This document shows positions 3,237 to 33,948 of a DNA stretch of 35,201 nucleotides, one piece after another; position 1 is the stretch's first letter; each line of letters opens with the position of its first letter. Under the pieces are notes generated by a model. The model did not search any database and was not told where the DNA came from. It saw only the letters and a program-made list of their open reading frames with translations. Both the position numbers and the translations under genes were made by a program. The stretch lies in the IMG/VR virus record IMGVR_UViG_3300025644_000310, positions 1-35,201 of that record; one strand, written 5' to 3'. This DNA is from a virus.

Positions 3237-4225
3237 TTTTCCTCCCAATACTCATAAACTCCCTTCTCTATTTCATAACTTTCCCAAAATTTTCTCATGT
3301 TGTTAGGTTGTGTTTTGGCCCAGACCCACATCTGCTGTAACCCATCATGTAATGAAGTTACATCTTTATACTCCAACAACTTTTCTGATTTACTCCAGGT
3401 AGAATGTGCATCCTTTACCTCATGTCTTGCTTCTTTATGAACCTTCTCTCCTCCTCCTATTACATCTCTTAAAATTTTATTTGCTTCATTAATAGTATAA
3501 AATTTTGTTCCTCCAAGATTTATAATTTCCTTTGAGCAATTTGGCTGCATTCCTGCTTTATAAAGTGGCTCTATACAATCACCAATATAGCTAAAAGCTC
3601 TAGTTTGCTCTCCATCTCCAAAAATTGTCATTGGCTCTTTATTAATATACTGATACATCCATATACCTAATACATTTCTATATTTATCCCAGATATTTTG
3701 CTTTTCACCATAAACATTGTGTGGTCTAATTATACACCAATCTAATCCATGTTGTTCACCTGCTATCTTGATATCCATCTCACAAGCATACTTTGCGACT
3801 CCATATGGATCTACAGGTTCAGGTATATCCCTTTCATCAAATGGTGATTTACCGTGACCATACACAGCCATTGTTGATGTAAATACTAATCTTTTTACTT
3901 CATAATTAATACAACAATTTACTATTTTAGCTGTTGAAATTAAATTATTTTTATAATTAAAAGCTCTCATAAAAGGGCTTAATCCTTCTGCAGCATAAGC
4001 TGCAAAATGATATACAATATCAGGAGCAGTTTTTTCAAAAATATTATTTAATTGATTTCCTTCTAATAAATCAAACTTATAAAATTCTACGTCTTTATGG
4101 ATATTATTAATATACCCACCACTTAAATCATCTATACCAATGACTCTATGATTTGTATTTTCAATTACCCAATCTGCAAACTTACTTCCTATTAATCCAG
4201 CTACTCCTGTTATCAGTATTTTCAT
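3233..4225 (-). CDS. NAD-dependent sugar epimerase/dehydratase (GalE-like)
   Basis: The 330-residue protein is an extended short-chain dehydrogenase. The NAD-binding glycine motif TGVAGLIG is at residues 6-13, the acidic IDDLSGG at 30-36, the catalytic serine/threonine in VFTSTMAVYG (about 113-122), and the YxxxK pair is Y140 and K144 (YGVAK). Length and motifs fit UDP-glucose 4-epimerase or a related UDP-sugar epimerase, which changes the configuration of a nucleotide sugar before transfer. It lies between glycosyltransferase genes and overlaps the next start. Exact substrate cannot be set from sequence alone. Confidence 0.85.
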   Translation of the reverse strand: MKILITGVAGLIGSKFADWVIENTNHRVIGIDDLSGGYINNIHKDVEFYKFDLLEGNQLNNIFEKTAPDIVYHFAAYAAEGLSPFMRAFNYKNNLISTAKIVNCCINYEVKRLVFTSTMAVYGHGKSPFDERDIPEPVDPYGVAKYACEMDIKIAGEQHGLDWCIIRPHNVYGEKQNIWDKYRNVLGIWMYQYINKEPMTIFGDGEQTRAFSYIGDCIEPLYKAGMQPNCSKEIINLGGTKFYTINEANKILRDVIGGGEKVHKEARHEVKDAHSTWSKSEKLLEYKDVTSLHDGLQQMWVWAKTQPNNMRKFWESYEIEKGVYEYWEEK

Positions 4226-4228
4226 TTA

Positions 4229-5065
4229 TTAATCCCTTAACTTAAAGCTCTTATAATCTTCATTACCTCTGTTCTGTGATATCAACCAATCTCTAGCCTT
4301 TACCGTATCCATATCTATCCATTCTTGAATTTTTGAATTTGCAAATCCATTATATTTAAGATGTATTTTACAATTATCCTCTTCCATATCTATATATACA
4401 TCAGCATGCTTCCACTTTGGTGTTCCTGTTTTAGATCCAGGTGTATGATGATGTGTATACTCTAGTTCTGTTCTCCAGTTTTCGAATCCATGCTCTAACA
4501 TCTGAAAATTAAGATCTGCATTAGGTACTGTCATCATATGCTCATCATATCTAATTAGATGCTCTCTCATTATATCTCCACTTACTAGTGTTATACCATC
4601 AGTCCAGTATGTTTCAAATGTATCTGTATCTCGCACTTTTAAGGTTTCAATGGTATACTCCTTTCTAGGATTATACTTTCGCTGACCCCCGTGTAACCGT
4701 GTCCCGAATACACCACAATTAGGTATACTTTTAGATAATGATGTAATTTTTTCTAACCAGTTACTTGTTGTAATTACTAGATCGTCCTCTTGATACAAAT
4801 ACCAATCTTCATCAGTTAAATATTCTAATCCTTTATTCATAGCCTTAGCAATATGTCCACCTGGTTCTGATGTAGTTTTAATTATATTTGTATAACCAAA
4901 ATCGTGTGCCAAAAACTCATCATCAGAATACGTACCATTTTTTACTATTACAGTTTTAATATCAAATGTATCGTTTGAATAAACTGAATCTATAACTTCT
5001 TGTAATAATTCTAATCTACTTGCTGTTGTTGGTATTACTACTAATATGCTTTGCTTTTTATTCAT
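4229..5065 (-). CDS. Glycosyltransferase family 2-like
   Basis: The 278-residue protein starts with an LVVIPTTASRLELLQEVIDS strand-helix, has an asparagine-glycine nucleotide site (VIVKNG) and then WYLYQEDDLVIT near residues 93-104, where EDD is the metal-binding motif. GGHIAKAMNKGLEYL corresponds to the GT2 helix before that motif. The gene is the first after a short 49-base gap that contains a T4-late-type TATAAATA box, so it may head a late transcript that includes the epimerase and further glycosyltransferases. Sugar specificity unknown. Confidence 0.8.
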   Translation of the reverse strand: MNKKQSILVVIPTTASRLELLQEVIDSVYSNDTFDIKTVIVKNGTYSDDEFLAHDFGYTNIIKTTSEPGGHIAKAMNKGLEYLTDEDWYLYQEDDLVITTSNWLEKITSLSKSIPNCGVFGTRLHGGQRKYNPRKEYTIETLKVRDTDTFETYWTDGITLVSGDIMREHLIRYDEHMMTVPNADLNFQMLEHGFENWRTELEYTHHHTPGSKTGTPKWKHADVYIDMEEDNCKIHLKYNGFANSKIQEWIDMDTVKARDWLISQNRGNEDYKSFKLRD

Positions 5066-7308: not shown

Positions 7309-7997
7309 ATTTTGTTCTCCTCATGTTTAATATAAAAATCATTAATTTTATATCTTTTATCTTTTTTGTATCCCATTAAATTCATATATTCCTCAATATT
7401 ATCATCATTGTAATTATTTTCTATTATTAATAATTTAACACTATATTTATCAAAATCTAAACCTTTTATTACATCCAATTCCGTTCCTTCTGTATCTATG
7501 GATATAAAATCTATATCTACAACATTTTCAAATGGTGTATCAGATGTTTCATTTTCTAATATCCAATTTAATGTTCTAACTTTTACATCCACTTTATAGC
7601 TATCATTTATTATTTCTTTATGATCTTCAACCAATCTTTCATCTGGTGACAATGATGTGAGTGAAGATGTTATATCATCCTTTCCTACTCTAAAAATGTG
7701 TAATGGTAATTCTTTATTTTCTTTACCACATGCATAATATCTAACAAATTTTCTATGTGCTGTTAATGATTCTTTATGTTCTATATTTGGTTCTATACAT
7801 AGAGCATCCCAACCTATATCTTCAAAATATTTAGTATTAGAGCCTTTATAACCATTAGCAGCTCCAACCTCAATACATATACCATCTGATTTATTCTTAA
7901 AATAAGATTCAATAATCTTATCTGTTTCCCACTGCCCGTAATATTTACTTGTAGCTTGCGTATTAAGCTCTGTGTTATTTTTATTTACATTATACAT
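7305..7997 (-). CDS. FkbM-family methyltransferase
   Basis: About 230 residues from the ATG at 7997; an upstream TTG at 8027 gives 240. SAM motif I is CIEVGAANGYKGSNT, a downstream IEP acidic loop follows, and DIDFISIDTEGTELDVIKG is the FkbM signature (DxxG-E region). FkbM-type enzymes are usually O-methyltransferases, often on sugars or polysaccharides. In this cluster it likely O-methylates a transferred sugar or nucleotide sugar. It overlaps the next gene as ATGA. Confidence 0.85.
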   Translation of the reverse strand: MYNVNKNNTELNTQATSKYYGQWETDKIIESYFKNKSDGICIEVGAANGYKGSNTKYFEDIGWDALCIEPNIEHKESLTAHRKFVRYYACGKENKELPLHIFRVGKDDITSSLTSLSPDERLVEDHKEIINDSYKVDVKVRTLNWILENETSDTPFENVVDIDFISIDTEGTELDVIKGLDFDKYSVKLLIIENNYNDDNIEEYMNLMGYKKDKRYKINDFYIKHEENKI

Positions 7998-8005
7998 ATC
8001 TATCT

Positions 8006-8776
8006 CTATCTTAAATAATGGATCCAACCACGTGCTATTGCTATTGATTGCATTCTTCTAAATACATCAATATCTTCACTATATAAATCTTTTGCAAAAT
8101 CTTTATCTGAATCAGATGAACCTGTTTTATCAAATTTATTAATTATACCAGTATTAAATGAGTTACGTCTAGCTGCATCTAGATTTGGGAATACAGTAAC
8201 GTCTTTCGTGATTAATACATTACATCCTAAAGGCGATGATATATTATTTAACCTCTCAAATTGGTGACAGTCTACTCCACCACGATCTTGAGCATTTTTT
8301 AACAGCTTAATTAAAAACTCTCGCTTCCATATACTTGGTAGTAGTGATGTAGTATGTAATGTAGATGGAGTATCAGTACAAGTATACCAATTTCCGCTAT
8401 ATAATACTGATGCTTTGCTTGTATAATCTTTATGAAGATATAGCTTATCCACTCCGCCCGCCTCCATTAAAGCAATTCCTTCAGCTAACCGGGTAGCATC
8501 CACAGGCTTTACGAGGTAATGATCTTCAAACGATAGTAGTAGATACTCGTCATCTATAGATTCGAAAAAAGTAATTAATGGAAAGGTCCATGTAGGAAAA
8601 TCCTTCTGTTTTCCCATAGATGTAAATTCAAAATTATTCGGTAATATTATGTCTGGTGAATCAAATCCTAATATTACTGTATCTACATCGTCACCAGTCC
8701 AGTATTTAGTAAATAGTTGAATATACCCTTCTAGTAAGAAATTGTATCGATCAGATGTAATTATAAAGCTCCTCAC
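8006..8776 (-). CDS. Glycosyltransferase-like protein
   Basis: The 256-residue protein starts at a GTG at 8776 that overlaps the stop of the upstream DUF4254-like gene; GGAGAGG lies a few bases before it. Seen: an N-terminal strand FIITSDRYNFLLEGYIQLF, a DEYLLLSFEDHYLVKPVD segment (about 77-94) whose EDH could stand for a DxD, and a later RGGVDCHQFERLN stretch. The layout looks like a GT-A enzyme and the context is glycan synthesis, but no family can be named with certainty. Confidence 0.5.
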   Translation of the reverse strand: MRSFIITSDRYNFLLEGYIQLFTKYWTGDDVDTVILGFDSPDIILPNNFEFTSMGKQKDFPTWTFPLITFFESIDDEYLLLSFEDHYLVKPVDATRLAEGIALMEAGGVDKLYLHKDYTSKASVLYSGNWYTCTDTPSTLHTTSLLPSIWKREFLIKLLKNAQDRGGVDCHQFERLNNISSPLGCNVLITKDVTVFPNLDAARRNSFNTGIINKFDKTGSSDSDKDFAKDLYSEDIDVFRRMQSIAIARGWIHYLR

Positions 8777-11988: not shown

Positions 11989-12500
11989 TAGTCGTTAAGT
12001 AACTCCAATTGTTCATCATCTTGTTTTTTCTTTTCTTTACCACTTAATGCTAATTCAAAATCATAATTTAATAATTCTACCAATTTCATTTTTTCCAACT
12101 TAAAAGTTTTGTATATGTTTGGAAGTGTCTTTTCAAGCTTTTTTATATTTTTCTTATAAAATACCTTTGGTGCAGAATATCCACTTGGAAACTTTAATGC
12201 CTGATATTCAAACTTCCCATCGGTTTCATTAAATATACCCTCACTTTCCTTTATGATTTTTTTCAATTCAACGGGTGGAACTTCTGATAAATCAAGACAG
12301 TGTGCTTTTTGATCTTTCATTCCACCAACAACTGGCCATAGATTTAATATCAAGACTAAGTATCTACCCTTGGACGCAGTTTTACTATCATATCTAATTT
12401 CATAAACTGACCCAGGTTTTAAATCACGAGGTTGAGATTTTTTTCTCCCCTTGCTATCACCTATTATTCTACCCCTATGTAATCTGTAATACTTAGCCAT
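11988..12500 (-). CDS. Phage protein of unknown function, basic N-terminus
   Basis: The 170-residue protein is not recognised. It has a basic N-terminus (YYRLHRGRIIGDSKGRKKSQ), then a beta-rich SH3- or KOW-like stretch (LKPGSVYEIRYDSK, RYLVLILNLWPVVGG), and a Lys/Glu-rich C-terminus (GKEKKKQDDEQLELL). It overlaps the upstream zinc-ribbon gene by 8 bases. The basic patch and small barrel-like segment would fit nucleic acid or virion contact, but nothing firm can be said. Confidence 0.5.
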   Translation of the reverse strand: MAKYYRLHRGRIIGDSKGRKKSQPRDLKPGSVYEIRYDSKTASKGRYLVLILNLWPVVGGMKDQKAHCLDLSEVPPVELKKIIKESEGIFNETDGKFEYQALKFPSGYSAPKVFYKKNIKKLEKTLPNIYKTFKLEKMKLVELLNYDFELALSGKEKKKQDDEQLELLND

Positions 12501-12984
12501 TACCTATATCCTTAGCAAAACCCATATCTTTACAAGCCTGGAGAAACTCATATTGTCCATATTCTATAGCACCTTCCATATCAAGTTTCTCAGTATAAAA
12601 TTCTCCATCTTTTCCTGGTACTGGATATGATTCTTTTTCGTTTTTAGGAACTTCAACTACTGTAGCATACTTCCATACCCATTTATTTATTGAACCTTCT
12701 GGGAATATCATACCCATTTGTCCCATATTTATAATGGATGGATACCAGTATATTTGTCTTTCTTCATCAAAGAATTCTAAGTCTTTAACAAGTTTTGAAG
12801 TGGTTTCTAATAGTTTTGCTCGTTCTTTGTTGTCCTCTGTGTAAAATGTATTGCTTAACATCCCACAATTAAAACATAAAAATGAACTATAATTTTCATA
12901 CATATCTTCAAAACAAGTATCTCTATCGTAACACACTGGGCAAGTATCTACAACTCGTTCACCGACATATTTTCCAATTTCCAT
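12493..12984 (-). CDS. Zinc-ribbon phage protein of unknown function
   Basis: The 163-residue protein has two Cys pairs near the N-terminus, CPVCYDRDTC (about 15-24) and CFNCG (37-41), a plausible zinc ribbon. The rest is acidic and aromatic (RQIYWYPSIINMGQMGMIFPEG). It lies between an HNH homing endonuclease and a phage gene of unknown function, so it is likely a resident phage gene that flanks an endonuclease insertion. No enzyme motif seen. Confidence 0.55.
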   Translation of the reverse strand: MEIGKYVGERVVDTCPVCYDRDTCFEDMYENYSSFLCFNCGMLSNTFYTEDNKERAKLLETTSKLVKDLEFFDEERQIYWYPSIINMGQMGMIFPEGSINKWVWKYATVVEVPKNEKESYPVPGKDGEFYTEKLDMEGAIEYGQYEFLQACKDMGFAKDIGNG

Positions 12985-13721
12985 TAAACTACCTCCCTAT
13001 TTAAAAAATATTTAAAAAACATTGTACTTAATACAGCATGATCTCCCTTTAATTCACTGCCACAGTGGACATCCTTGCTTTCAAAAAATAACTTTATGTG
13101 CTTTCTAACGTTTTCGCTATATGTAATAAATTGTAAATTACTTATATCTCCAATATATTCTACCGGTATGTTATTTACAAACCCATAATTTATCGGAACT
13201 ATGTGATCTAAATGATATCCCAACCTACCTCGTTTTCCACTATTTGGTAATAAGTGTACCGACTGTGAATTTGTTATACGTAGAACATTCTTTTTGTATA
13301 TCTGCTTATCCGTTTTTGAAGCTAAAAAATCATCGTAATTATCATATCCATATTTCTTAATGTATCTATCTAATACACCAGGTTTGTACATATTATTCTC
13401 TTTACCACATTTTTCCCAGAATGGATTATTTTTACCAATCATCATCATTGAAATGCGTTTATATAACAATTTACCATCACCACTTTTATTAAATTTTAAC
13501 CTAGCACACGATTTACATTGCACTTTATGTCTAATTTGATTTATACAAGATTGCTTTGCTGTATGGAATACTTCACACTTGCAACTTGGGCAATCCCTAA
13601 CAAACTTACCATTTTTTATTTTAACATTGTATTTTATCTTACTTTTCCAAGAACATTCATTTGAACAATATTTTATATTTGTAGTATCCACACCACAAGC
13701 CTTACATTTAATAGTATTCAT
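12984..13721 (-). CDS. HNH homing endonuclease with zinc fingers
   Basis: The 245-residue protein has N-terminal Cys pairs (CKACG 6-10, CSNEC 19-23, CPSCKC 44-49, CKSC 69-72) and a NUMOD3-like GKNNPFWEKCGKENN (96-110), both used for DNA recognition in phage homing nucleases. The HNH core is YHLDHIVPINYG, with H170 and H173, then N195 in ISNLQF and the final N204/H208 in ENVRKH. It cuts DNA to spread its own gene. Its ATG overlaps the stop of an RHH gene (13718-13873) as ATGA. It is a freestanding nuclease with no intron or intein signal next to it. Confidence 0.88.
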   Translation of the reverse strand: MNTIKCKACGVDTTNIKYCSNECSWKSKIKYNVKIKNGKFVRDCPSCKCEVFHTAKQSCINQIRHKVQCKSCARLKFNKSGDGKLLYKRISMMMIGKNNPFWEKCGKENNMYKPGVLDRYIKKYGYDNYDDFLASKTDKQIYKKNVLRITNSQSVHLLPNSGKRGRLGYHLDHIVPINYGFVNNIPVEYIGDISNLQFITYSENVRKHIKLFFESKDVHCGSELKGDHAVLSTMFFKYFLNREVV

Positions 13722-13873
13722 TTATTATTATCCAGTTTTCGTGTTTTATCTATCCATTCCAATATTAAATTTTCTATTAACAATGATTTATTTATAGAAT
13801 GGGTCTTTGCTATCTCATTAAATTGCTTCACCACTGATTTATCTACTGTATAATTTACTAGTTGTCGTTTCAT
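13718..13873 (-). CDS. Ribbon-helix-helix (CopG-like) DNA-binding protein
   Basis: A 51-residue reading frame from ATG at 13873, preceded by GGAG. The translation starts MKRQLVNYTVDKSVVKQFNE and continues with IAKTHSINKSLLIENLI. This is the short RHH pattern: a beta strand (VNYTVDK), helix, turn, second helix with an S-L-I-E-N start. Such proteins bind operators as dimers. It overlaps the HNH endonuclease gene by 4 bases (ATGA), so the two are co-translated. It may repress the endonuclease or its own promoter; that is inference from the pairing seen twice in this window. Confidence 0.65.
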   Translation of the reverse strand: MKRQLVNYTVDKSVVKQFNEIAKTHSINKSLLIENLILEWIDKTRKLDNNK

Positions 13874-13953
13874 TTACTTTATCTCCAAGTTTTATTCATA
13901 CTTATACATAAATAAATATAAAGAAATTCAATTTTCAATCAATTATTTCCATT

Positions 13954-15300
13954 TTAATTTACCTTTTTTAATGTTGGAAGTTTTATTTTCGGTAACTCTT
14001 TAACTTCACCGACTTTTTTTAACGTCGGGAGTTTAAGTTCCACCGGTTGTGGTGGAGCTTCAAAATTAGGTAAACATGCGTCGAGTATTTTCTCAAATTT
14101 TACAGTCATTGCATCAAGTGAGAACTTTGTTTTATTCATTATACCCTGTTTCTTAGCCTTTACCGTGTATTTATTATAATTATCAAAAACATCCTTTAAC
14201 ATTTTAGATGCGTAATTGTAATTTACAGTAAACCATTGAGTTCCTTTTATGTGCATTCCATTCTGTAATGATTCTTTCTTTACATCATTCATACTACCTG
14301 GTAATAATACAGACTTTTTACTATCCAGGAAATCTGTATGACCACTCCAGTTTGGTGCAATTACTGGTTTCTCACTTAAAGATGCCTCAAGTAATGGACG
14401 ACCAAATCCCTCACCGTGGGTGAATGAAACGTGAACCTTTACCTTTGGGTGATTGTATAAATCATTCATCTCATCATCTCTTAAATCACCGTGCAATACA
14501 TAAATGTTTGGTAAGTTACCCTCTACTGTCTGTCTTATTTGGTTCAACTTTGCGAGTATATCTTCTCTATCTAATATACAGGGTGTTGCTCCACTTGTTT
14601 TTAGAATTAGTGCAGGTTGGTTCTTCTTATTCTTAAATGTTTCCAAGAAGGTTTTAATCAGCATACCAAGATCTTTTCTGTCATTTCCTAAACCACCTTG
14701 TAACCAATGCCCCACGAATAGAAAACAAAAATCTTCTTTTATACTATCGAACTCGTCTACCAAATCCTTTGAAAATTCTTTTGTTGTTTTGTATATGTTT
14801 GTGTCTGCACCTTCAAATAAAACTTCTATTGGTGTTTGACATCTAACTTCACCAATTTTCTGTTTAGTTTGATTATCATGTTTATCAAATACGACCTTTT
14901 CAATACTTTCCTTAACAAATGTCGCTGGAACAATATTCAAGTTCATTCTATTTAATCCCTCTATCCATTCTGGGGGACACACGGTGGTTTCTAATCCTGC
15001 TGTGATACCAATATTAAATTTACCGATTGGTTGGAATTCATTTGGGACTACTATATGGATGTGAATATCTGGTTGTCTATCCATATTTGGATTATCTAAT
15101 AATCTCTCTATGATTGGAATATCATTTGGGTCATTTTCACTTAATGCATTTTGACTTGTGCTCCCCCACCTAACAGGCCATATTTTAATATCAAATTTAT
15201 TCATAGAAATCAATGACCTTGCAATATCTCTGGAGTGACTACCATATCCACTTCGAGTTCCCACCGGAGCAGTTATCAAAACTAAAGGTTTATAGCTCAT
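13954..15300 (-). CDS. GT-B glycosyltransferase (GT4/GT1-like)
   Basis: The 448-residue protein has the GT-B fold marks: N-terminal GTRSGYGSHSRDIARSL (acceptor side), then FCFLFVGHWLQGGLGNDRKD and the donor-binding HGEGFGRPLLEAS from residue 295 (GEGFG 296-300, E305). An unusual C-terminal tail carries a repeated octapeptide KLPTLKKV at 423-430 and again at 440-447, separated by a Val/Glu/Lys linker. The tail may bind a partner or the virion, but this is a guess. AGAGG lies before the ATG. It is followed by an RHH-HNH pair inserted downstream. Confidence 0.88.
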   Translation of the reverse strand: MSYKPLVLITAPVGTRSGYGSHSRDIARSLISMNKFDIKIWPVRWGSTSQNALSENDPNDIPIIERLLDNPNMDRQPDIHIHIVVPNEFQPIGKFNIGITAGLETTVCPPEWIEGLNRMNLNIVPATFVKESIEKVVFDKHDNQTKQKIGEVRCQTPIEVLFEGADTNIYKTTKEFSKDLVDEFDSIKEDFCFLFVGHWLQGGLGNDRKDLGMLIKTFLETFKNKKNQPALILKTSGATPCILDREDILAKLNQIRQTVEGNLPNIYVLHGDLRDDEMNDLYNHPKVKVHVSFTHGEGFGRPLLEASLSEKPVIAPNWSGHTDFLDSKKSVLLPGSMNDVKKESLQNGMHIKGTQWFTVNYNYASKMLKDVFDNYNKYTVKAKKQGIMNKTKFSLDAMTVKFEKILDACLPNFEAPPQPVELKLPTLKKVGEVKELPKIKLPTLKKVN

Positions 15301-15342
15301 ATATTTAAATCCTCTTCTGTTATTATTTTGAATTCATTTTTA

Positions 15343-16254
15343 TCAAACTTTATATAACGTAAATCGTTTTCTTGGTGTCCAGTTTTCAAGTGCAGTGTCC
15401 ATGTCATGTACCATACGTTTACACATATTTTTAGCTGACATTCCAATTTCTTCTAATTGTAAAAACTCCCTACCTAACTGTCCACATTCTTTTCTTTTTT
15501 CTGGTCCTTCATTATACCATTCTAATAATCTATCTGCTACATCATCCCATCTACATCTGTCGTCGAAAATATACGGTGTTGGAATTGAACCTTGTAAACT
15601 TCTATTTGATGGCCAGACTGGTTTTGCCCAATCACCGTAAGTAAGATCAGGATTGTCTTTCCATTTTCTGTCATCGTGTAGTGAATGAACCCAATCGTAA
15701 TCTTCAGTTGTTAGGAATTTACCCTTATATTTGAAGCCACTTGCATCCTGTAGACCACCTGTGGTATTTGTAGTGATTGGTGTTCCTGCCATTAGACTTT
15801 CGACTGTACCCAATCCGAAACCTTCATTACTTGCCATGTTTATAGTAACATCTGCAATATTATATAGAAAATTGAGTTGTTCGTCGTCTATCTTTTGGTG
15901 TGAGAATACAATATCGTAATCTGGACAAATTTCATTTACTACTACTGGTAAATCTGTTCCATTCTGGTCTACTGGTTGAGTGTGCATTAATAATACACAT
16001 TTGTCTGATTTCTCTTTGGGTAAGGTATCACAGAATGTTTTATATGCTAAAATCACGTCACTTGGAACTTTCCGTCTGATATTCCGATTATTCCAAAATA
16101 CTACGAAATCTTTATCTTTATCGTGGAACACTGATTTTCTATATCCTTGTAGTTTCTTCCATTTTTCCACATCTAACTCATTTATTGGGAAAAACTTATC
16201 TTCTGGAATACCATGTGGAACGTATGATAACATAACTTTACTTTTCTCGTTCAT
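15343..16254 (-). CDS. GT-B glycosyltransferase, C-terminal (donor) half of a broken gene
   Basis: About 303 residues from the ATG at 16254, which has AAGGAG five bases upstream; a GTG at 16260 is also possible. It holds the donor half of a GT-B enzyme: YVPHGIPEDKFFPI at the start (the usual linker into the second domain), FVVFWNNRNIRRK, and MASNEGFGLGTVESLMAGTP, the donor-site E-G-F-G and glutamate. It is in the same reading frame as the piece at 16282-16758, separated by two in-frame TAA codons. The two may act together as separate chains, or the gene may be decaying. The good ribosome site before this half favours separate expression. Confidence 0.75.
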   Translation of the reverse strand: MNEKSKVMLSYVPHGIPEDKFFPINELDVEKWKKLQGYRKSVFHDKDKDFVVFWNNRNIRRKVPSDVILAYKTFCDTLPKEKSDKCVLLMHTQPVDQNGTDLPVVVNEICPDYDIVFSHQKIDDEQLNFLYNIADVTINMASNEGFGLGTVESLMAGTPITTNTTGGLQDASGFKYKGKFLTTEDYDWVHSLHDDRKWKDNPDLTYGDWAKPVWPSNRSLQGSIPTPYIFDDRCRWDDVADRLLEWYNEGPEKRKECGQLGREFLQLEEIGMSAKNMCKRMVHDMDTALENWTPRKRFTLYKV

Positions 16255-16281
16255 TTTCACTCCTTATTTTTCTAATAAAAC

Positions 16282-16758
16282 TTATTTTCCAATCCATTCA
16301 GTGTCGACACCACTTCTGTTTAAAACATCTTTATGCATTGCACAAGATTGTTTGGATATTCCCATTATCAAATCAGAACTCTCGTAGTATCTTGCATTGT
16401 ATAATGGTGATGGAAAATTGTCCCAAAGTGCATAATAAAATATGGGGATGAGTTGTCTAATTTCATGTTCCATTTGATATAACCAGCCCCAGAACCTCGG
16501 ATCAGTAAAATGTAAGATGGCATCTGGGTTTTCCAATTTCATTAGTTGTCGTAATAACTCTTGATTTCCATATCCACTAATAGGATATATTTTGAGGTAA
16601 GCATCTTCTATTCCAGTTTCTTCTCTAACTGAATCATTCATATCCACCACTTTACCGTCTTCTGGATGTTTTATTGCACCACCGGCCTGGACCCAATCGT
16701 ATTTATCAAGTGTACCCAGTACAAAATTTTTGGAAACTGTACCAACCCCACTACTCAT
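16282..16758 (-). CDS. GT-B glycosyltransferase, N-terminal (acceptor) half of a broken gene
   Basis: The 158-residue frame begins MSSGVGTVSKNFVLGTLDKY, the acceptor-side opening of GT-B enzymes, and continues with DAILHFTDPRFWGWLYQME and SCAMHKDVLNRSGVDTEWIGK. It stops at a TAA just where the donor half should begin. Upstream in the same frame, after one TGA codon, lies KKKKILLLSDDL (16765-16845), which is the expected first strand of this same enzyme. So this piece lacks its first strand unless the stop is read through. In an intact enzyme all three pieces would form one protein of about 500 residues. Confidence 0.7.
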   Translation of the reverse strand: MSSGVGTVSKNFVLGTLDKYDWVQAGGAIKHPEDGKVVDMNDSVREETGIEDAYLKIYPISGYGNQELLRQLMKLENPDAILHFTDPRFWGWLYQMEHEIRQLIPIFYYALWDNFPSPLYNARYYESSDLIMGISKQSCAMHKDVLNRSGVDTEWIGK

Positions 16759-16764
16759 TCTGAG

Positions 16765-16845
16765 TCAAAGATCATCTGATAAAAGTAAGATTTTTTTCTT
16801 CTTACTATTCAGATGATCTGTAGATACCTCCGTGATTTTATTCAT
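16765..16845 (-). pseudogene. Detached N-terminus of the broken GT-B glycosyltransferase
   Basis: A 26-residue frame ending KKKKILLLSDDL then TGA, followed in frame by L-R-M-S-S-G-V-G of the next piece. The sequence is the natural first beta strand of the GT-B protein. Removing the six bases TTGACT would restore SDDLRMSSGVG without a stop. The ATG overlaps the stop of the homing endonuclease gene at 16838-17845. A strong inverted repeat (16769-16819) falls inside it. Confidence 0.6.
16769..16819. repeat. Strong hairpin with nested inverted repeats
   Basis: An 11-base perfect inverted repeat (AGATCATCTGA at 16769-16779 with TCAGATGATCT at 16809-16819) encloses a 7-base one (AGTAAGA 16784-16790 with TCTTACT 16800-16806), with an A/T-rich loop. 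On the minus strand it lies in the first codons of the broken glycosyltransferase, just before its TGA. It has no T-run after it, so it is not a standard terminator. Confidence 0.7.
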
Positions 16846-17845
16846 ATTTATATTCCTGTAGTAATTTACCATTTTCATGTAATATCCATACATCAATTTT
16901 ATATAATTTATCTGTAACCGATTTACATTTTGATTCAACTGTATCTTCGTGTGTTTTATACGTCCACATTGATTTAACTTCTATAAACTTATTTTCAGAT
17001 TTTATAAAAATATCTGGAAAATACCTTCTATCTTTACCATTATTATACCAAAATTTTGGCATGCCTTTTTTATCTGTGAAAATATCACTTTCATCGTACA
17101 ACTTAAACAAAATATCTAACGCCTGTGGTTCATACCCTTGAACTCTTAATAACTTACCAGATGGTGTTTTATAATCTTTAAAATTTAATCTACTTTTAAT
17201 ATTTTTTTGATGAACTTCTGTATTTTGTTGAGCATTTCTAACTCCGTATTTTTTCAAACAAGTAGTCTCAGATTTTTCTCTGAATTCACTCGTTTTGAAG
17301 TAGTTAGATACACCATACTTTTTGAGCATTGTCTTTTTATAACTGTCACTTCTACTCTGAATCCGCTTCCTTGTCCATTTACTATTTGGATGGGATAACA
17401 TTCGTTCAACTACTTTATTGTCATTCATAGGATTATTTTTCATCATATATTCAGATTGACGTTTTATAGAAGAATTAGTATCTTTTGTAAGTCCACTATT
17501 CCAACTTTCACAGTGACCACCTAAAAATCTATTATATGTGTGTCTCGTATAACTATATTCTGTAAATTCACCACACCCACATTCACATTCAATTTTATGG
17601 TGTTTTATATTATAATTGTCAACCGATAAATTATGTAATTTTAAATGGTTAACTTTAATTGCTGAATTGGAACTTACAATATCACCACATTCTTTACAAT
17701 CAAACTTTCCAACAACATATTCACCATAATTTGATTTTGGAAATTTAAATTTGTATTCATACAATGATATACCGTGTTTAGATTTTAAATGTGAGCCATT
17801 GATTCTCATTTTCATCGTATCACCACATATTTCACAAACTACCAT
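16838..17845 (-). CDS. Homing endonuclease, zinc finger plus PD-(D/E)XK
   Basis: The 335-residue protein has N-terminal zinc-finger-like repeats (CEICG with SHLKSKHGISLYEYK, then CKECG with NHLKLHNLSVDNYN, then CECGCGE), a basic middle with paired KKYGVSN/KKYGVRN repeats that could read DNA, and a C-terminal nuclease core RRYFPDIFIK...NKFIEVKS, giving PD at 277-278 and E289-x-K291. This is the PD-(D/E)XK pattern of restriction-like homing nucleases. Its ATG overlaps the stop of a small RHH gene and its stop overlaps the start of a broken glycosyltransferase, so it sits exactly at that gene's 5' end. Confidence 0.82.
   Translation of the reverse strand: MVVCEICGDTMKMRINGSHLKSKHGISLYEYKFKFPKSNYGEYVVGKFDCKECGDIVSSNSAIKVNHLKLHNLSVDNYNIKHHKIECECGCGEFTEYSYTRHTYNRFLGGHCESWNSGLTKDTNSSIKRQSEYMMKNNPMNDNKVVERMLSHPNSKWTRKRIQSRSDSYKKTMLKKYGVSNYFKTSEFREKSETTCLKKYGVRNAQQNTEVHQKNIKSRLNFKDYKTPSGKLLRVQGYEPQALDILFKLYDESDIFTDKKGMPKFWYNNGKDRRYFPDIFIKSENKFIEVKSMWTYKTHEDTVESKCKSVTDKLYKIDVWILHENGKLLQEYKYE
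16845..16852 (-). promoter_or_regulatory. Possible late promoter box at glycosyltransferase start
   Basis: TATAAATA on the minus strand ends at the first base of the ATG at 16845. A transcript from it would begin a few bases inside the frame, so it would lack this ATG and could favour the start at 16758. Chance occurrence is possible in such AT-rich DNA. Confidence 0.25.
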
Positions 17846-18018
17846 TTTATACTTCCACTAATCTGTTCATATTTTTCATCAATTAAATTAACTAACGCCT
17901 CTCTAACCGACACAAATTTTACACCATCGTCAGAATATTTAGCTATTATTTTTTGTAACTTTTTAAAAGTTACGACTTCTAATTCTATAGGTGCTATTTT
18001 TTTTGTATTTGATTTCAC
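17839..18018 (-). CDS. Small RHH-like protein paired with homing endonuclease
   Basis: A 59-residue frame from a GTG at 18018; no in-frame ATG is available. It reads IELEVVTFKKLQKIIAKYSD then FVSVREALVNLIDEKYEQ. A short strand followed by two helices, the second starting V-S-V-R-E-A, fits an RHH or related small DNA-binding fold, though less clearly than the protein at 13718-13873. Its TAG lies inside the ATGGTAG start of the PD-(D/E)XK homing endonuclease, so the two are co-translated. This mirrors the RHH-HNH pair downstream. Confidence 0.5.
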   Translation of the reverse strand: MKSNTKKIAPIELEVVTFKKLQKIIAKYSDDGVKFVSVREALVNLIDEKYEQISGSIKW

Positions 18019-18079
18019 ATTATATATCTTATATCTTTTATATAAATATCAAGAAATTAAATAAAACATCATTTTATTT

Positions 18080-18268
18080 TTAACTTTTTGCCATATTATC
18101 TTTATTCATAACCATATCTACAGCTTCACTAACTTCAAATATATGCCCCATAAACAAATACCATTCATCAATGGTAAAATGTAATGTCATATGTGGCATC
18201 TCAAAATGTATAGTTTCATTGCTCATAAATGAGTCGTTTGGTAAATCTATTATTTCATTCTCTTTCAT
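18080..18268 (-). CDS. Small phage protein of unknown function
   Basis: A 62-residue acidic protein (MKENEIIDLPNDSFMSNETI...) with a Met/His-rich middle (FEMPHMTLHFTIDEW) and one likely helix (EVSEAVDMVM). No motif recognised. It follows an RHH gene with a 21-base gap. Confidence 0.4.
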   Translation of the reverse strand: MKENEIIDLPNDSFMSNETIHFEMPHMTLHFTIDEWYLFMGHIFEVSEAVDMVMNKDNMAKS

Positions 18269-18289: not shown

Positions 18290-18493
18290 TTAAAAATTAC
18301 TACCACTTGCTTCAAGCCCATCATATTCTACAATAGATTTTTTGTATTCTTCATCACTCAAATATTTATCCATTGATCTATTTACTAATTTTTGTAATGT
18401 AAATTCTTCTCTCAGTGCAATTTCTTTAAATCTCTTGTATAAATCCGTTATTATTTTAACAGAAGTAAGTTTTGTATTATCTTTTATCCTCAT
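18290..18493 (-). CDS. Ribbon-helix-helix-type DNA-binding protein
   Basis: The 67-residue protein has TKLTSVKIITDLYKRFKEIA then LREEFTLQKLVNRSMDKYL. The strand TSVKI, first helix LYKRFKEIALRE and second helix TLQKLVNRSMDKYL form the RHH pattern. GAGG lies before the ATG. It would act as a dimeric operator-binding regulator; its target is unknown. This is the third RHH-like gene in a 5-kb stretch, but this one is not directly followed by a nuclease gene. Confidence 0.6.
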   Translation of the reverse strand: MRIKDNTKLTSVKIITDLYKRFKEIALREEFTLQKLVNRSMDKYLSDEEYKKSIVEYDGLEASGSNF

Positions 18494-20730: not shown

Positions 20731-21417
20731 CTATTTCTTCTCAACTTTCCAGTTGTGACCATTTTTACCATAATAAAATAAACTATAGTAACTTACTTTT
20801 TCATTATTTTTCATAGTATACTCCATAATATACTGTTTAACTTCTTTTTTACCTAAAAATGTTTTAGTGTTGCCATTTGGAAATGTAACTATCCAATGTT
20901 TAGCATATAATTTTTTAAAATAAAGTTTAAGTTCGTCTGTATGATTTTTACCATAAAATGGATTTTTCTTTCCAGTGATATCAACAGTCTTATGCCATTC
21001 TACTTTAGATATGGACATTTTTAATTTGGATTCATCTGAATGTTTACGTCCTGTACTCGATATTCTAAGTTTTTCTTTGGTTTCATCTGAATGTTTCCAA
21101 CTGTTATTTTTGGTTCTAGTTGCAACCATTTTATCTAATGATTCCTTTGAGTGTGCATAACCATTATTTGATATTCGTGTATTCCTTATTTTATTAATGG
21201 TTTCAATTGACAATAATTTATTCATCCCACCTGTAGTTAAGTTATATCCATTACATTCTGGATCACCACGGAATGTGTGATATTCTTTAATGTATTTTTG
21301 TTCTAATAGATTTAACTCACCAATAGATTTTGCTGAATTATCTATAACTTTCCAACTAAAATTTTCGTTCCCATGTTTTCTAATTGATCTATGAAAATAG
21401 GTTGCTGGATCATTTCG
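20731..21417 (-). pseudogene. GIY-YIG homing endonuclease, distal part after in-frame stop
   Basis: Past a TAA at 21418-21420 the frame continues open as RNDPATYFHRSIRKHGNENF, then LLEQKYIKEYHTFRGDP and GYNLTTGG. These are the second half of the GIY-YIG domain, including the expected catalytic glutamate (LLEQKYI). The rest, from the ATG at 21225, has repeated NUMOD3-like motifs (HSKESLDKM, HSDETKEKL, HSDESKLKM, GKKNPFYGKNHTDELK) for DNA binding and ends in WKVEKK. With the N-terminal piece it would make a normal endonuclease of about 262 residues. Only the DNA-binding part has its own ATG. Confidence 0.75.
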
Positions 21418-21519
21418 TTATGCATGTAAATGTTCTGATATTCTTTGTGTTAATGGTTTAATTGTTTGACCAATATAACTTTTATTATTGACTTTGTTAG
21501 TAGCTTTGTAGATAATCAT
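21418..21519 (-). pseudogene. GIY-YIG homing endonuclease, N-terminal part
   Basis: From an ATG at 21519 with a perfect AGGAG site: MIIYKATNKVNNKSYIGQTI then KPLTQRISEHLHA and TAA. It contains the IY...YIGQT motif and the conserved arginine (LTQRISEH) of the GIY-YIG nuclease, but stops before the catalytic glutamate. The same frame also runs back to an ATG at 21645 in the end of the upstream gene; those 42 codons are probably leader DNA, not protein. A single base change would restore the full enzyme. Confidence 0.75.
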
Positions 21520-21632
21520 TTTATTTCTCCTGTTCAGATTTATGTTATAGAACAAGTTATCCTTACTTAAACAGGTTTCAGGAAACACTCCGTCGAATGC
21601 TGTCCTTGTTCTATAATAACTATCAGGAAAAA

Positions 21633-22055
21633 CTATTTTCCCCATTTTTTTCTACTAACAACCAATGCTATATTAGCATAATTTGCAATGTCAATAAATG
21701 TATCTTCAACGTTTTCATCTACCGCACTTTTCTTATTTTTTAATACAAGATTTAATAATCTCTGTAATTTATCATTCAATCTAATTACTACTCCTGATAG
21801 TGCCATTTGTCTATCATCAGATTTATTTATATCACCACCCATTAAAATAGAATTTTTTCCATATGCTTGCTGTTTTTTGGCAAATAACTCATATTGTTCT
21901 TCTTGTATTTTACGAAACTCTTTCATCATTTCTGGATATTCTCGTTCCATTTTGTCTATGATGTTATTTGACTGTGGGTTCACTTCAATTGTATCTGGTG
22001 AACCATCGTTTCCGTAGATTACTCTTTTTTTATTATCTTTGATAAATTTAGTCAT
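21633..22055 (-). CDS. DUF1599/Nmad1-like phage protein
   Basis: The 140-residue protein has QYELFAKKQQAYGKNSILMG (about 52-71), VVIRLNDKLQRLLNLVLKN (about 89-107) and the end VEDTFIDIANYANIALVV. The pattern K..YG, then R..DK..R...L, then D...D.AnYa.ia matches DUF1599 (nucleotide modification associated domain 1), a helical family of phages related to nucleotide-binding all-alpha enzymes. It may act on nucleotides or base modification. Its C-terminus seems to have a displaced homologous copy at 20656-20730 beyond the GIY-YIG gene. A conserved leader AGGAGTTATAAATT precedes the ATG. Confidence 0.65.
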   Translation of the reverse strand: MTKFIKDNKKRVIYGNDGSPDTIEVNPQSNNIIDKMEREYPEMMKEFRKIQEEQYELFAKKQQAYGKNSILMGGDINKSDDRQMALSGVVIRLNDKLQRLLNLVLKNKKSAVDENVEDTFIDIANYANIALVVSRKKWGK

Positions 22056-23062: not shown

Positions 23063-23417
23063 TCAATATACTGACCTAATGTGTATCAACTTCTCACAAT
23101 TCAAACATTTTTTATTTTTTCCATCACCTACCATCAATCCATGTTTATAATTTCCATTATTTTCACCTTTATGAGTGCAACTCCTACACTTAAACCCCAG
23201 TGATTCAGCTCGAATCATTATATCATTCCGTTTATAAGTAATCACCTTTTCGCAAGTCGGACAATTTCTTTTGAAACTCCCTAATTTTTTCTTCATAATA
23301 TTTCTCCATTTTTTCTTTATTTATTTCATCTTTATTTCGATGATAATAATCTAAAGACCACTTACGTTGAGCTTGTTTCTTTTCATCTACCGTAATATGT
23401 TTCTTTATTCTTCCCAC
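23063..23417 (-). pseudogene. Homing endonuclease, zinc-finger N-terminal part (frameshifted)
   Basis: Two overlapping frames. The first, from a GTG at 23417 with AGGAG, reads GRIKKHITVDEKKQAQRKWS and LDYYHRNKDEINKEKMEKYY, a helical DNA-binding start common in phage HNH/Vsr nucleases. It is out of frame with the second (23063-23296), which has NCPTCEKVITYKRND, FKCRSCTHKGENNGNYKHG and KKCLNCEK zinc-finger pairs. The frames meet at a run of six A residues, so one extra A there would explain the shift. The second frame then ends at a TGA that interrupts the distal part. Together this is a decayed nuclease gene. Confidence 0.6.
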
Positions 23418-23474
23418 TTATCATCTCCTATAATAAATATAACTAAAGTAAAAAAATGAAGTTATTTTATTCAT

Positions 23475-24554
23475 TTATTTTTGAAAAATTAGGCAAGGCT
23501 CCAGTTTCATACCTTTCCCCATAACTGATGAAAGAGTTAATTGTATTGTATCTACGTGAGTGAAGCCGACCCTTTCCGCAACTTTAATTGTACTTCCCAC
23601 TATTGTTTTATGTTTTGATGTATTTGCTATATTAATAATCATATACTTCTCATCCTTTAATCCGTAATAACCATTTTCAAATGATTGAAATAAAAATTCA
23701 TTTACCCAGCTGTCTAATGTAGGAAATTTTATATAACTTTGTGTTGGTTCATCACTATATTTCTCAGTGTCGAAATATGGTGGTGATGTAAAAACTAAAT
23801 CTAATATATCAGGATCTGTTCTGTATGTTTCTGACCCACACTTATATATATCAACTTTTTTCCCTAAATACGAAAAATCTTTTTTCATTTCTAATAGACC
23901 TTCGTATGCTCTGGTGGATGGTTCAGTACCAATATAATGTTTGGTATTTGATGATGCTAAGAACCCCAATAGTCTGCCGCCCCATCCAGAGCTAAAATCC
24001 CTAATGACTTCTCCACCGTATTTTTCATAAATCATCTTTGCAGCTGTTGGTCTAAAATTAGATACTGATTGTGTACCTGTATAAATTTTTATTGACTGAC
24101 GTAATCTGTTTTCGTGAAACTTATTATGGGTCCGTATTCCCTCACCACTCCAATGTTTTATTTGCCAGGTCCAACACTTTTTGATTGTTGCCTTGAACTT
24201 CTTATCATCATTGAAAGTTTCCATTGGGGATTTCATAGAGTTCCCACATTGAATTTCCCAAAAATATGGGAAGTAGGACCAGGCTAACCGTAGAGCATGC
24301 ATAGTCTGGATGATTTTCTTGTCCTCAAATATAGTGGTTGTGTCGAATTTACGCAGTTTTCTCATATGAGAATGCTTCTCATCTTCTCGTATTTTGTAGT
24401 GAGGGAAACCGTGTTTTCTATAATACTTGAAAATGACTTCTACGCCGTAATCAATATCTACTGTATCTATATTATTTGTAACTCTCTCAAACTCTAAATC
24501 ATCTTCATCAAACTCGAAAAAATTACCGAGTGTTGAGTAATTTGTTCGGCTCAC
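23475..24554 (-). CDS. DNA N-methyltransferase (TSPPY type)
   Basis: The 359-residue protein starts at a GTG at 24554 overlapping the gp62 stop as GTGA. It contains VIRDFSSGWGGRLLGFLASS (184-202) as the SAM-binding loop, TKHYIGTEPS as the acidic strand and LVFTSPPYFDTEKY (253-266) as catalytic motif IV (TSPPY), usual for N4-cytosine or N6-adenine amino-methyltransferases. The N-terminal 160 residues may hold target recognition. It may modify phage DNA against host restriction. No matching restriction gene is present. Confidence 0.85.
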   Translation of the reverse strand: MSRTNYSTLGNFFEFDEDDLEFERVTNNIDTVDIDYGVEVIFKYYRKHGFPHYKIREDEKHSHMRKLRKFDTTTIFEDKKIIQTMHALRLAWSYFPYFWEIQCGNSMKSPMETFNDDKKFKATIKKCWTWQIKHWSGEGIRTHNKFHENRLRQSIKIYTGTQSVSNFRPTAAKMIYEKYGGEVIRDFSSGWGGRLLGFLASSNTKHYIGTEPSTRAYEGLLEMKKDFSYLGKKVDIYKCGSETYRTDPDILDLVFTSPPYFDTEKYSDEPTQSYIKFPTLDSWVNEFLFQSFENGYYGLKDEKYMIINIANTSKHKTIVGSTIKVAERVGFTHVDTIQLTLSSVMGKGMKLEPCLIFQK

Positions 24555-24994
24555 GGTAGGTTCAGTTTTTTCAGTTCTTTTGTATCCGCTCCGTATTTCT
24601 GGAGAATAGTTTTGAGATTTGCCTTGTTCTGTTCGGTTGCATAGAATACTTCTAAATATTCGTGTGCTTCTTTAAGACTTGATTCATAGTACTTTGCTAC
24701 TATTTCTAATAACCATTTTGGATGTTTCATACTCTTTTTACCTTTTGTGTATTTCAACCATTGCTTACCCTTTGGTAATATATTGGTATATAACTTGTAT
24801 AACTCTTGTGGTCTTAAATTATATTTTTGGAACTCATTTACTATATCTACCCATTCCATTTTCATAGATAGGAAGCGATGTACCATATAATTAGACCAAT
24901 TTTTCTTTTCTTTATCATTGAGCGTATCCCAATAACCTTTTGTTTGTTTTCCTGTTATATGATTTATGTGGTCAAACAGTGTTTTTGTTTTCAT
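24551..24994 (-). CDS. 62: Clamp loader small subunit, gp62-like
   Basis: The 147-residue protein is helical with NWSNYMVHRFLSMKMEWVDI, LYTNILPKGKQWLKYTKGKK and LEIVAKYYESSLKEAHEYLE. The order W..YMv.R.LS, then LPK.K...KY.K, then YY..S..EA.eyL matches the clamp-loader small subunit of T4-like marine phages, which joins gp44 to load the gp45 clamp. I recognise it by pattern, not by computed alignment. No strong ribosome site precedes it: the upstream DNA is a 60-base AT-rich stretch where an island ends. A truncated copy of its first 45 codons lies at 30834-30998. Confidence 0.72.
   Translation of the reverse strand: MKTKTLFDHINHITGKQTKGYWDTLNDKEKKNWSNYMVHRFLSMKMEWVDIVNEFQKYNLRPQELYKLYTNILPKGKQWLKYTKGKKSMKHPKWLLEIVAKYYESSLKEAHEYLEVFYATEQNKANLKTILQKYGADTKELKKLNLP
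24894..24991 (-). repeat. 98-bp direct repeat, copy at intact gp62
   Basis: Identical base for base to 30895-30992 and in the same orientation. It covers codons 2-34 of gp62. Beyond 24894 toward lower coordinates similarity continues for about 40 bases with mismatches, then stops. It marks one end of the cargo island. Confidence 0.95.
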
Positions 24995-28799: not shown

Positions 28800-30416
28800 T
28801 TACATGGAATTTGTACATATTCCCTTTGATATCCACCATGAAGTGTTGTTACAAACAATACTACCTTTTAGCGTGGTATAAGAAGGAGCGTGGTTCAAAT
28901 TGTTGCTCTGTGCTGAGTAATAATAACAGGCTGTAGGGGCGCTAGGATAGTGCACAGTCCATGAATATCCATACGTCAGCCAATTGAGCCAGGGCGGAGC
29001 CGCACATGCCACATTATGCATTATCACTCCGTTAGCATAATAATAATCCTGGGGTTCAACATTAAGTTCGTGAATAGGAAACACCTGTGTTGAAGATGAA
29101 ACAACCGAAAAACTTGTTATCTTTAATGGTTGTCCGTCCTCACCTGCCAAATAATCTCCAACCGACAACTCTATTGTTGGTTTAAATTTCCATTTATTTT
29201 CACTTCCGCTAGTCAAAAGGTTTGTAAATGTACCAAATTTCTTATCACCATTTATTACGGTATATGAATCTGTATATCTATCAGCCCACTTTTCGGTGAC
29301 CTCAACATTTGATTGGGATGGTATTGACAAGCTTGAAGTTTCCCAAAGTTTCCACAAATAATTACCACACTTGTTAGCGTACCCATCCGATTCATCGGGT
29401 AACCCACTAATATTACGGACTTTTAAGAACGACCCTGTAACTACATTTTCTATGTTTGTATAACTGTCATCAGACATTAATACTTGACTTCCTGTCATAG
29501 CACCCTTTCGTGTAATAGTAGTAGTTGCATAAGAACCCGAATCACCTGATAAAATATAATGAGGTAATTGAGTTTGAAAAACATTCACATCCGCTGTAAT
29601 TGAACCACGTGGTTGTAAAAAAATATTTTCTTGTGGAGTCAGCATCACAATGCCCCTCACCTCGGAATAATAGGCTCCATTATAATTTAAATCGGGTTGG
29701 ATAAACTCCTCACAATAAGATTGAGAAAGTAAATAATCTTTATTATCATCCGTTATATCATAAAACTGAAAAGAATTCATAAGTAAAGTTTGATAATCTA
29801 CTGTGGGGTCTTTAATAAGTACATCTGGAACACCAACACCATTAGAAAATCCATCAGGTAAATCTGCCATTTTTCTTGGCATCAAAGATTCAATTCCAGA
29901 TGAAGATGCGAAATTCCTAAATTCTCTTTTATCCGATGCTAAATAATCAATAGGACTTGCAGAATCAAATCCAAATCGTAACACAAAAGTAGTATTAGGA
30001 ACATCAAAATCTGGTACCGGAGTAGGATAGGAGGGCTGAACATAAATACTTGATGTAAACCCATCTATGTCCAAACTGGCTGTTATATCACCCACTAAGT
30101 TCAAAGATGGTATAACAGTTCCTTCTTCATTTCGTGTAACCAAAACTATAGTGTCATAATTATTTGCTTTCCACCAAGTAACTGCACTATCTAAAAAATT
30201 AGTTTCAGGTGGAGTTTGAATATTCGTGTTAAGTTCTAATAACTTTAATGATCCACTTGAAGGGACCCAATCATATCCGGCAATTACTCCATAATTATCA
30301 CCCTTTCCCGACCAATATTCAGGATTACTTCCTGTTAAAAAGGGAGCGGCAGCTTGCAAAGACTGAGTTACAATAGAACTACTATAATTATTAAAACTAA
30401 AATAATTTAATTTCAT
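28800..30416 (-). CDS. Hint-domain protein with ATP-grasp-like N-terminus and releasable tail
   Basis: The 538-residue protein has three parts. Residues 1-300 resemble ATP-grasp enzymes loosely: GYDWVPSSGSLKLLELNTN, GVPDVLIKDP and SYCEEFIQPDLNY. Residues 306-468 form an intein-like Hint domain: AMTGSQVLMSDDSYTNIENV at the start, HELNVEPQDYYYANGVIMHN at the end. Ala replaces the first Cys, and Val follows the final His-Asn, so splicing is not expected; only cleavage after Asn468 is plausible. The 70-residue tail (starting VACAAPPWLNWL) is rich in Trp, Tyr and Cys. ATGA overlap with the acetyltransferase gene. Confidence 0.65.
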   Translation of the reverse strand: MKLNYFSFNNYSSSIVTQSLQAAAPFLTGSNPEYWSGKGDNYGVIAGYDWVPSSGSLKLLELNTNIQTPPETNFLDSAVTWWKANNYDTIVLVTRNEEGTVIPSLNLVGDITASLDIDGFTSSIYVQPSYPTPVPDFDVPNTTFVLRFGFDSASPIDYLASDKREFRNFASSSGIESLMPRKMADLPDGFSNGVGVPDVLIKDPTVDYQTLLMNSFQFYDITDDNKDYLLSQSYCEEFIQPDLNYNGAYYSEVRGIVMLTPQENIFLQPRGSITADVNVFQTQLPHYILSGDSGSYATTTITRKGAMTGSQVLMSDDSYTNIENVVTGSFLKVRNISGLPDESDGYANKCGNYLWKLWETSSLSIPSQSNVEVTEKWADRYTDSYTVINGDKKFGTFTNLLTSGSENKWKFKPTIELSVGDYLAGEDGQPLKITSFSVVSSSTQVFPIHELNVEPQDYYYANGVIMHNVACAAPPWLNWLTYGYSWTVHYPSAPTACYYYSAQSNNLNHAPSYTTLKGSIVCNNTSWWISKGICTNSM

Positions 30417-30841: not shown

Positions 30842-30998
30842 TTATTGATGTCCAATTCATATTCATAGATAGAAAACGGTGAACCATATAATTGGACCAA
30901 TTTTTCTTTTCTTTATCATTGAGCGTATCCCAATAACCTTTTGTTTGTTTTCCTGTTATATGATTTATGTGGTCAAACAGTGTTTTTGTTTTGGTCAT
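30834..30998 (-). pseudogene. Truncated 5' copy of gp62
   Basis: A 54-codon frame, MTKTKTLFDHINHITGKQTK, then ...NYMVHRFLSMNMNWTSIND and TAA. The first 45 codons match the intact gp62 at 24551-24994; after LSM the two diverge and this copy soon ends, in the acetyltransferase start. The ATG directly follows the stop of the zinc-ribbon gene (TAGATG), so this is probably the original place of gp62. Confidence 0.85.
30895..30992 (-). repeat. 98-bp direct repeat, copy at truncated gp62
   Basis: Identical to 24894-24991, same orientation, spaced by about 5.9 kb that contains exactly the six cargo genes. It bounds the other end of the island. Confidence 0.95.
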
Positions 30999-33884: not shown

Positions 33885-33948
33885 TTAACATCTCCATTGT
33901 TCATATATAAATATAACCAACTTGTGTTTTTCGAGTAAAAAAATCTAA

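Follow-up and report, generated by a model that had tools for sequence, protein, structure and literature searches.

The DNA considered here is virus record IMGVR_UViG_3300025644_000310 of IMG/VR, positions 1 to 35,201 (35.2 kb; hereafter the window), and the question it raises is why, at two places on its minus strand, a small gene runs into the start of a homing-type endonuclease gene. At site A, the gene for a 51-amino-acid (aa) protein, RHH1 (13718..13873), ends with a TGA that overlaps the ATG of an HNH endonuclease gene (12984..13721) as ATGA; at site B, a 59-aa gene, RHH2 (17839..18018), ends inside the ATGGTAG that begins a PD-(D/E)XK nuclease gene (16838..17845). A preliminary description of this DNA had reported both pairs, with coordinates, strands, overlaps and shared end sequences that we found to be exact, and had rightly remarked that proteins of 51 and 59 aa escape a 60-residue annotation cutoff. 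It had further proposed that both small genes encode ribbon-helix-helix (RHH) proteins, paired in the same way with nucleases of different folds, and that each may repress or target its nuclease or form with it a portable two-gene homing cassette. In our analysis such a cassette is supported for RHH1, by empty sites in relatives and by recurrence of its kind upstream of other nucleases. As a whole, the locus is best explained, with a probability of roughly 0.6, by two independent insertions of free-standing homing endonucleases, one at each end of a glycosyltransferase operon, in which RHH1 would repress its own cassette at site A and the target gene would have received a recoded, protected start at site B.

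Insertion of RHH1 and the HNH nuclease as one block

RHH1 belongs to the RHH fold. Its match to Pfam family RHH_1 (E=0.006) is under Pfam's cutoff, its homolog in locus L185 passes RHH_3, and a profile of its family found six matches in the PDB, all of them RHH proteins (CopG, antitoxin Rv0298, E73, SvtR, NikR). The structural model, with a predicted local distance difference test score (pLDDT) of 87, likewise matches RHH folds almost exclusively, including those of CopG, Arc, ParD and related antitoxins. The partner is a 245-aa homing-type endonuclease with a weak Pfam match and a match to PHROGs family phrog_5104 at 5e-14; it is homologous to the HNH proteins found between genes 18 and 19 of T4-like phages, and in alignment its family keeps a conserved LDH...NL...N motif.

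RHH1 and the HNH gene entered this genome as an insertion. A scan with the 448-aa glycosyltransferase (GT448) yielded 80 loci, and the comparison rests on metagenomic assemblies. In 53 of 59 places (redundant contigs counted) the zinc-ribbon protein gene that is the target at site A follows GT448 within 10 nt, with neither RHH1 nor HNH present; the two genes are missing as one block, and an empty site stands in their place. Alignment with these relatives delimits an inserted segment of about 975 bp in the window (12961..13935, minus strand, junctions accurate to a few bp). On its left, ATGGAAATAATTGATTG (13936..13952, minus strand) is retained as a remnant of the zinc-ribbon gene's old start, and on its right the cassette supplies a new ATG and eight codons to that gene (12493..12984, minus strand). 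The cassette thus comprises two genes behind a promoter-like sequence, one for the small RHH protein and one for the HNH nuclease translationally coupled to it; it went into the opening codons of the following gene, which received a new start codon from it.

Judged by catalytic motif and by presence or absence at a conserved site, the nucleases of both sites appear to be free-standing homing endonucleases. Their placement between or into phage genes resembles that of the seg and mob genes of T4-like phages, which are intergenic, missing at the same site in relatives, and sometimes a source of regulatory sequence for the flanking genes (PMC2988022). The T4 genes differ in being described as single genes with no dedicated regulator, whereas the insertion in the window has an RHH gene first. 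A group I intron or an intein was rejected at both sites, as no Rfam intron match was obtained for the window or related loci and no intein was seen at either site.

Homing endonucleases need control, since the host genome would otherwise be cut. A promoter-like motif, ATATTTAT, lies on the minus strand upstream of RHH1 (13912..13919), upstream of the 59-aa gene (18042..18049) and upstream of two other nuclease-type operons (23433-23440 and 33907-33914), and hence ahead of all four nuclease-type operons of the window. It precedes 20 of 139 nucleases, compared with 17 of 368 other genes and a shuffling expectation of about 3, an enrichment which suggests that these cassettes may carry their own promoter. 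The most plausible role for RHH1 is that of an autorepressor, which would bind its own cassette promoter and limit the nuclease. We base this role on analogy with I-TevI, whose DNA-binding activity at its own promoter represses transcription and limits the nuclease (PMC2988022), with the difference that the nuclease itself is the repressor there and a separate small RHH protein is the proposed repressor here. RHH1 also resembles the repressors of the CopG/Arc type, and type II toxin-antitoxin operons, in fold, gene order and overlap; it differs from them in having a homing-type nuclease as its partner and in that no operator was found at the locus.

Recurrence of RHH genes ahead of nucleases in other phages

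ATGA and short gene overlaps are ordinary in phage genomes, and it is the recurrence of the RHH-nuclease pair, rather than the overlap itself, that exceeds chance. As plain protein queries against viral contigs, neither the HNH protein nor RHH1 gave a match and profiles were required; nuclease profiles for HNH and PD-(D/E)XK returned 80 loci each, and an RHH1-like profile was run over 131 whole virus records at a threshold of E <= 1e-3. The latter search produced 8 matches in 7 places, each directly upstream of a nuclease or nuclease-like open reading frame (ORF). Behind RHH1-like genes stand nucleases of the HNH, PD-(D/E)XK, GIY-YIG and Vsr-like types, in unrelated phages. The proposal of one pairing with different nuclease folds, which fails inside the window because the 59-aa protein cannot be shown to be RHH, thus holds across phages.

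The individual cases are varied. In L128 the RHH gene overlaps the start of an HNH gene, and the pair interrupts a glycosyltransferase gene, the halves of which align to the two sides of the break. The start of a PD-(D/E)XK gene is overlapped in L185 and L219, and by 22 nt in L236; two tandem RHH genes precede a GIY-YIG nuclease in L260; in L268 the RHH1-like gene shares an ATGA with a Vsr-like homing endonuclease whose family is represented hundreds of times in phages; and in L272 a weak RHH1-like match lies ahead of a nuclease-like ORF. Another RHH-type small ORF precedes a Vsr-like nuclease in L275. An RHH query found no RHH1-like gene among the bacterial genomes of GTDB, and when GTDB contigs were scanned with only the nuclease, the one locus obtained (L273) likewise had an overlapping RHH1-like gene. 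Over the collected loci, an RHH gene stands directly upstream of 7 of 139 nucleases as against 4 of 1014 other genes (P=7e-5 as computed), and 3 of those 4 are themselves nucleases or nuclease-like. Two loci (L002 and L180) were rejected as independent support because they are identical to the window over 4.1 kb and represent the same virus. In L183, L225 and L201 an RHH gene overlaps a PD-(D/E)XK start upstream of a glycosyltransferase; these may or may not be clean cassettes, as L061 and L092 carry that type of RHH gene and have no nuclease. Because RHH1 with its HNH partner is an insertion and RHH1-like genes recur upstream of homing-type nucleases, a portable RHH-nuclease cassette is supported, and the same kind of RHH gene may have been acquired by different nuclease folds. 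A portable RHH regulator shared by nucleases of four types would, if true, amount to a general way of controlling these enzymes, and one not described in the literature searched.

Several observations pull the other way. Only some 5% of the nucleases counted are partnered by an RHH gene, and relatives of the HNH and PD-(D/E)XK enzymes occur in isolated phages without one, so that the RHH protein is not needed for homing. The RHH1 profile was itself built partly from genes that adjoin nucleases, which leaves L236, L260, L268 and L273 as the sole new tests of the association, and one weak RHH1-like match (L274, in a 134-aa protein, E=1) is not beside a nuclease. Operator-like direct repeats upstream of RHH genes did not exceed those in shuffled sequences, one nominal case excepted. 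Within the window the 59-aa gene is not demonstrably RHH, and L181 and L182, which carry related nucleases, have no RHH gene of any kind at that place.

Other relationships between the small protein and the nuclease would also account for parts of this pattern. An RHH dimer and the nuclease could form a two-chain homing endonuclease in which the RHH protein gives part of the target recognition, as the tight translational coupling and a gene order conserved over four nuclease types would suggest; we consider this unlikely, given that relatives of these nucleases whose N-terminal zinc fingers are laid out in the same way (L181, L182 and L070), and the T4-like HNH relatives, do without an RHH partner. 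The order, size, RHH fold and ATGA overlap agree equally with type II toxin-antitoxin operons, and the best fold matches of RHH1 include the antitoxins Rv0298, ParD and CopASO, so that the small protein might be an antitoxin-like inhibitor that binds the nuclease and also regulates its own operon. RHH antitoxins, however, usually have a C-terminal toxin-binding tail, whereas the present proteins are almost only RHH core (47-57 aa), and their partners are homing-type nucleases. The locus has the overlapping small gene first, as a type II operon would, and its second gene is not from a known toxin family, on which ground we rejected that assignment; the inhibitor role we hold to be improbable.

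It could also be that the RHH genes are unrelated hitchhikers, or residents beside which nucleases happen to land. The preliminary description had named relatives that keep the RHH gene in place without the nuclease as the sign of a mere neighbour; none were found for RHH1 or for the 59-aa gene. The control gene RHH3 (18290..18493, minus strand) is such a resident at site B: dozens of relatives keep it ahead of the glycosyltransferase gene, and in 52 of 68 places it lies within 30 nt of the 465-aa glycosyltransferase. In the window, a 62-aa ORF, the 59-aa gene and the nuclease lie between the two, and RHH3 does not adjoin a nuclease. The 'ISGS' RHH genes of L183 and L225 are possibly residents too, as this type is found upstream of a glycosyltransferase both with a nuclease (L183, L186, L225) and without one (L061, L092), and the 59-aa gene may itself be a hitchhiker. 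For RHH1 there is little to favor such an origin: no relative with the empty site has it, genes like it are scarce (7 places over the 131 records) and, save one weak match in a longer protein, always stand at nucleases, and the pair of L128 sits inside an interrupted gene. We accordingly assign a low probability to chance neighborhood, and retain autorepression within a mobile cassette as the preferred role of RHH1.

The nuclease and the interrupted glycosyltransferase at site B

The site B nuclease (335 aa, with N-terminal zinc-finger motifs) matches DUF7487 at 1e-45, and its PD...ExK motif is invariant in the family alignment. The nuclease and the 59-aa gene are missing in close relatives, where only a different, resident RHH gene is kept. 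The RHH identity proposed for both small proteins stands for RHH1, by profile and fold, and is not borne out for the 59-aa protein. The latter has no RHH match in Pfam or PHROGs, none in the PDB by sequence, and no homolog in our searches; its low-confidence model is a helical hairpin without RHH fold matches, and comparison of profiles with three RHH groups gave no RHH relation, so that we rejected its membership. Its gene begins with GTG, ahead of which there is no clear Shine-Dalgarno sequence. The 62-aa ORF (18080..18268, minus strand) belongs to the extra DNA of site B and is missing in relatives; the idea that it is a degenerate left-hand copy of the beginning of the glycosyltransferase gene was rejected, since the similarity did not exceed that of shuffles except against one relative. 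Both junctions are occupied in L070 as well, where site A holds a GIY-YIG nuclease and site B a PD-(D/E)XK nuclease (7350-8102 and 3759-4562 of that locus); neither has an RHH partner, and they are unrelated to, or distant from, those of the window. Sites A and B are thus hot spots of recurrent nuclease insertion.

Directly after the nuclease lies a glycosyltransferase gene that is interrupted near its start. Its N-terminal half (16282..16845, minus strand) begins with the ATG at 16845, reads MNKITEVSTDHLNSKKKKILLLSDDL, and is broken by an in-frame TGA (16765-16767) within a TGACTC insertion (16762..16767, minus strand) between DDL and RMSSG, with the leucine codons CTT (16768-16770) and CTC (16762-16764) flanking the stop. 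The interruption falls in the most conserved motif of the protein, which relatives read unbroken as SDDL-RMSSG. A motif search over all collected loci gave 95 glycosyltransferase starts, among which the interruption is confined to the window, the copies identical to it (L002, L180), L181 and L182; the remaining starts, about 90, are unbroken. L182 reads GAC GAC CCG TAA AAA CCT AGA and L181 reads GAC GAC CCG TGACA AGA, so that matched codons, synonymous in both cases, surround the gap in the window (CTT/CTC) and in L182 (CCG/CCT), and none do in L181. Just upstream of the interruptions of L181 and L182 stand the nucleases most closely related to that of the window (45% and 43% identity), each preceded by a shortened left-hand copy of the beginning of the glycosyltransferase gene that marks the insertion point. 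A second break in the window gene separates this half from the C-terminal half (15343..16260, minus strand) at the inter-domain linker (16260-16282), a split also present in L061, L071, L073, L076, L085 and L092, sometimes with extra genes between the halves.

Nuclease, hairpin and stop co-occur: the nuclease is linked to a stop-containing gap in 3 of 3 interrupted starts, representing two lineages, and in each a strong hairpin ends at the codon before the stop. In the window this hairpin covers 51 nt (16769..16819, minus strand; 11 bp + 7 bp), and its z score is -3.8, with -3.4 and -3.7 in L181 and L182, as against -2.1, -0.1, +1.2 and -1.9 in uninterrupted relatives. The 3' arm of the hairpin codes for (S/C)DD, and the 5' arm changes along with it from one lineage to the other (AGATCATCTGA/TCAGATGATCT compared with GTCGTCAC/GTGACGAC), which could reflect selection or two separate inverted duplications. 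Past the stop the gene is under purifying selection, with a ratio of nonsynonymous to synonymous substitution (dN/dS) of about 0.07-0.2, like that of uninterrupted relatives; between L181 and L182, dN past the stop is 0.12 and dS is 0.83. The 16 codons before the stop differ between these two loci by 2 nt, with no synonymous difference, where their flanking genes differ on average by 9-13 nt over stretches of 16 codons.

In our proposal for site B, the PD-(D/E)XK nuclease would have come in together with a recoded version of the target gene's first ~26 codons, in which the hairpin and a stop-bearing 6-nt insert lie in the most conserved motif. The recoded copy would probably shield the genome from the nuclease, and recoding at the stop would restore the glycosyltransferase protein. 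Readthrough, reinitiation and an inactive gene are all possible at this stop, and to hopping or bypass we give a chance of roughly one third. That the gene is dead, or restarted past the stop by termination-reinitiation without recoding, is a serious contender, if short of an even chance: the window has an in-frame ATG 6 nt after the TGA, the TGA of L181 overlaps a GTG (GTGA), and the window gene is split again at its linker. Restart would, however, sacrifice the first beta strand, yet the codons before the stop hold the consensus KKKILLLSDDL and have hardly diverged between L181 and L182; the purifying selection downstream speaks against a dead gene, and L182 has no close restart codon.

Among the systems closest to our proposal is mobA/gene 60 of T4, where a homing endonuclease is linked to a bypassed insert that has been proposed to block cleavage (PMC5009743, PMC3014915); in T4-related phages, gene 60 is said to have no counterpart (PMC3014915). 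Both have an upstream nuclease gene, a stop-containing insert after the take-off codon and a 5' stem-loop. The present gap is 6 or 9 nt rather than 50, the nuclease is PD-(D/E)XK rather than HNH, the target is a glycosyltransferase, and the matched codons are synonymous, not identical, in what is a candidate bypass read from sequence. Experimental 'stop hops', in which matched codons surround a stop and 9 nt are decoded as one amino acid, have exactly the form of CTT TGA CTC, and a 2016 review knew of no natural in-frame case (PMC5009743); the present candidate differs in being a natural gene with an upstream hairpin. We tentatively suggest a second family of mobile translational-bypass cassettes, in which a PD-(D/E)XK nuclease, a hairpin and a short stop-bearing insert would make the glycosyltransferase gene uncleavable while ribosomes hop CUU-UGA-CUC (CCG-UAA AAA-CCU in the relative). 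This suggestion has to contend with the restriction of the interruption to two lineages, with the 5-nt insert of L181, which is incompatible with a simple hop, and with the duplicated codon around the stop, which may arise without selection. The locus offers a second place in which to examine how a homing endonuclease may travel with a ribosome-bypass signal, as well as a compact candidate for natural stop hopping.

Other homing-type elements in the window

Further traces of homing-type elements are scattered over the minus strand. The clamp-loader gene is split (33949-34566 and 32282-33010) into ORFs with intein-like N- and C-terminal pieces, and a freestanding PD-(D/E)XK-like nuclease ORF (32991-33884) lies between the halves in what is known as a 'fractured gene' arrangement. 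A small ORF of 61 aa, basic and coil-like, runs into what is left of a broken HNH nuclease gene (23063-23417), and a similar small coil-like ORF overlaps HNH nucleases in L101, L102 and L137, making a second type of small-gene/nuclease pair. Homing-type fragments are also present at 20731-21225 and 21418-21645, in the form of a NUMOD-like ORF and a GIY-YIG-like C-terminal extension of a small ORF, and a 538-aa ORF (28800-30416) has Hint/intein-like C-terminal motifs. The N-terminal ~50 residues of a 147-aa protein (24551-24994) are repeated almost exactly in a small ORF at 30834-30998.

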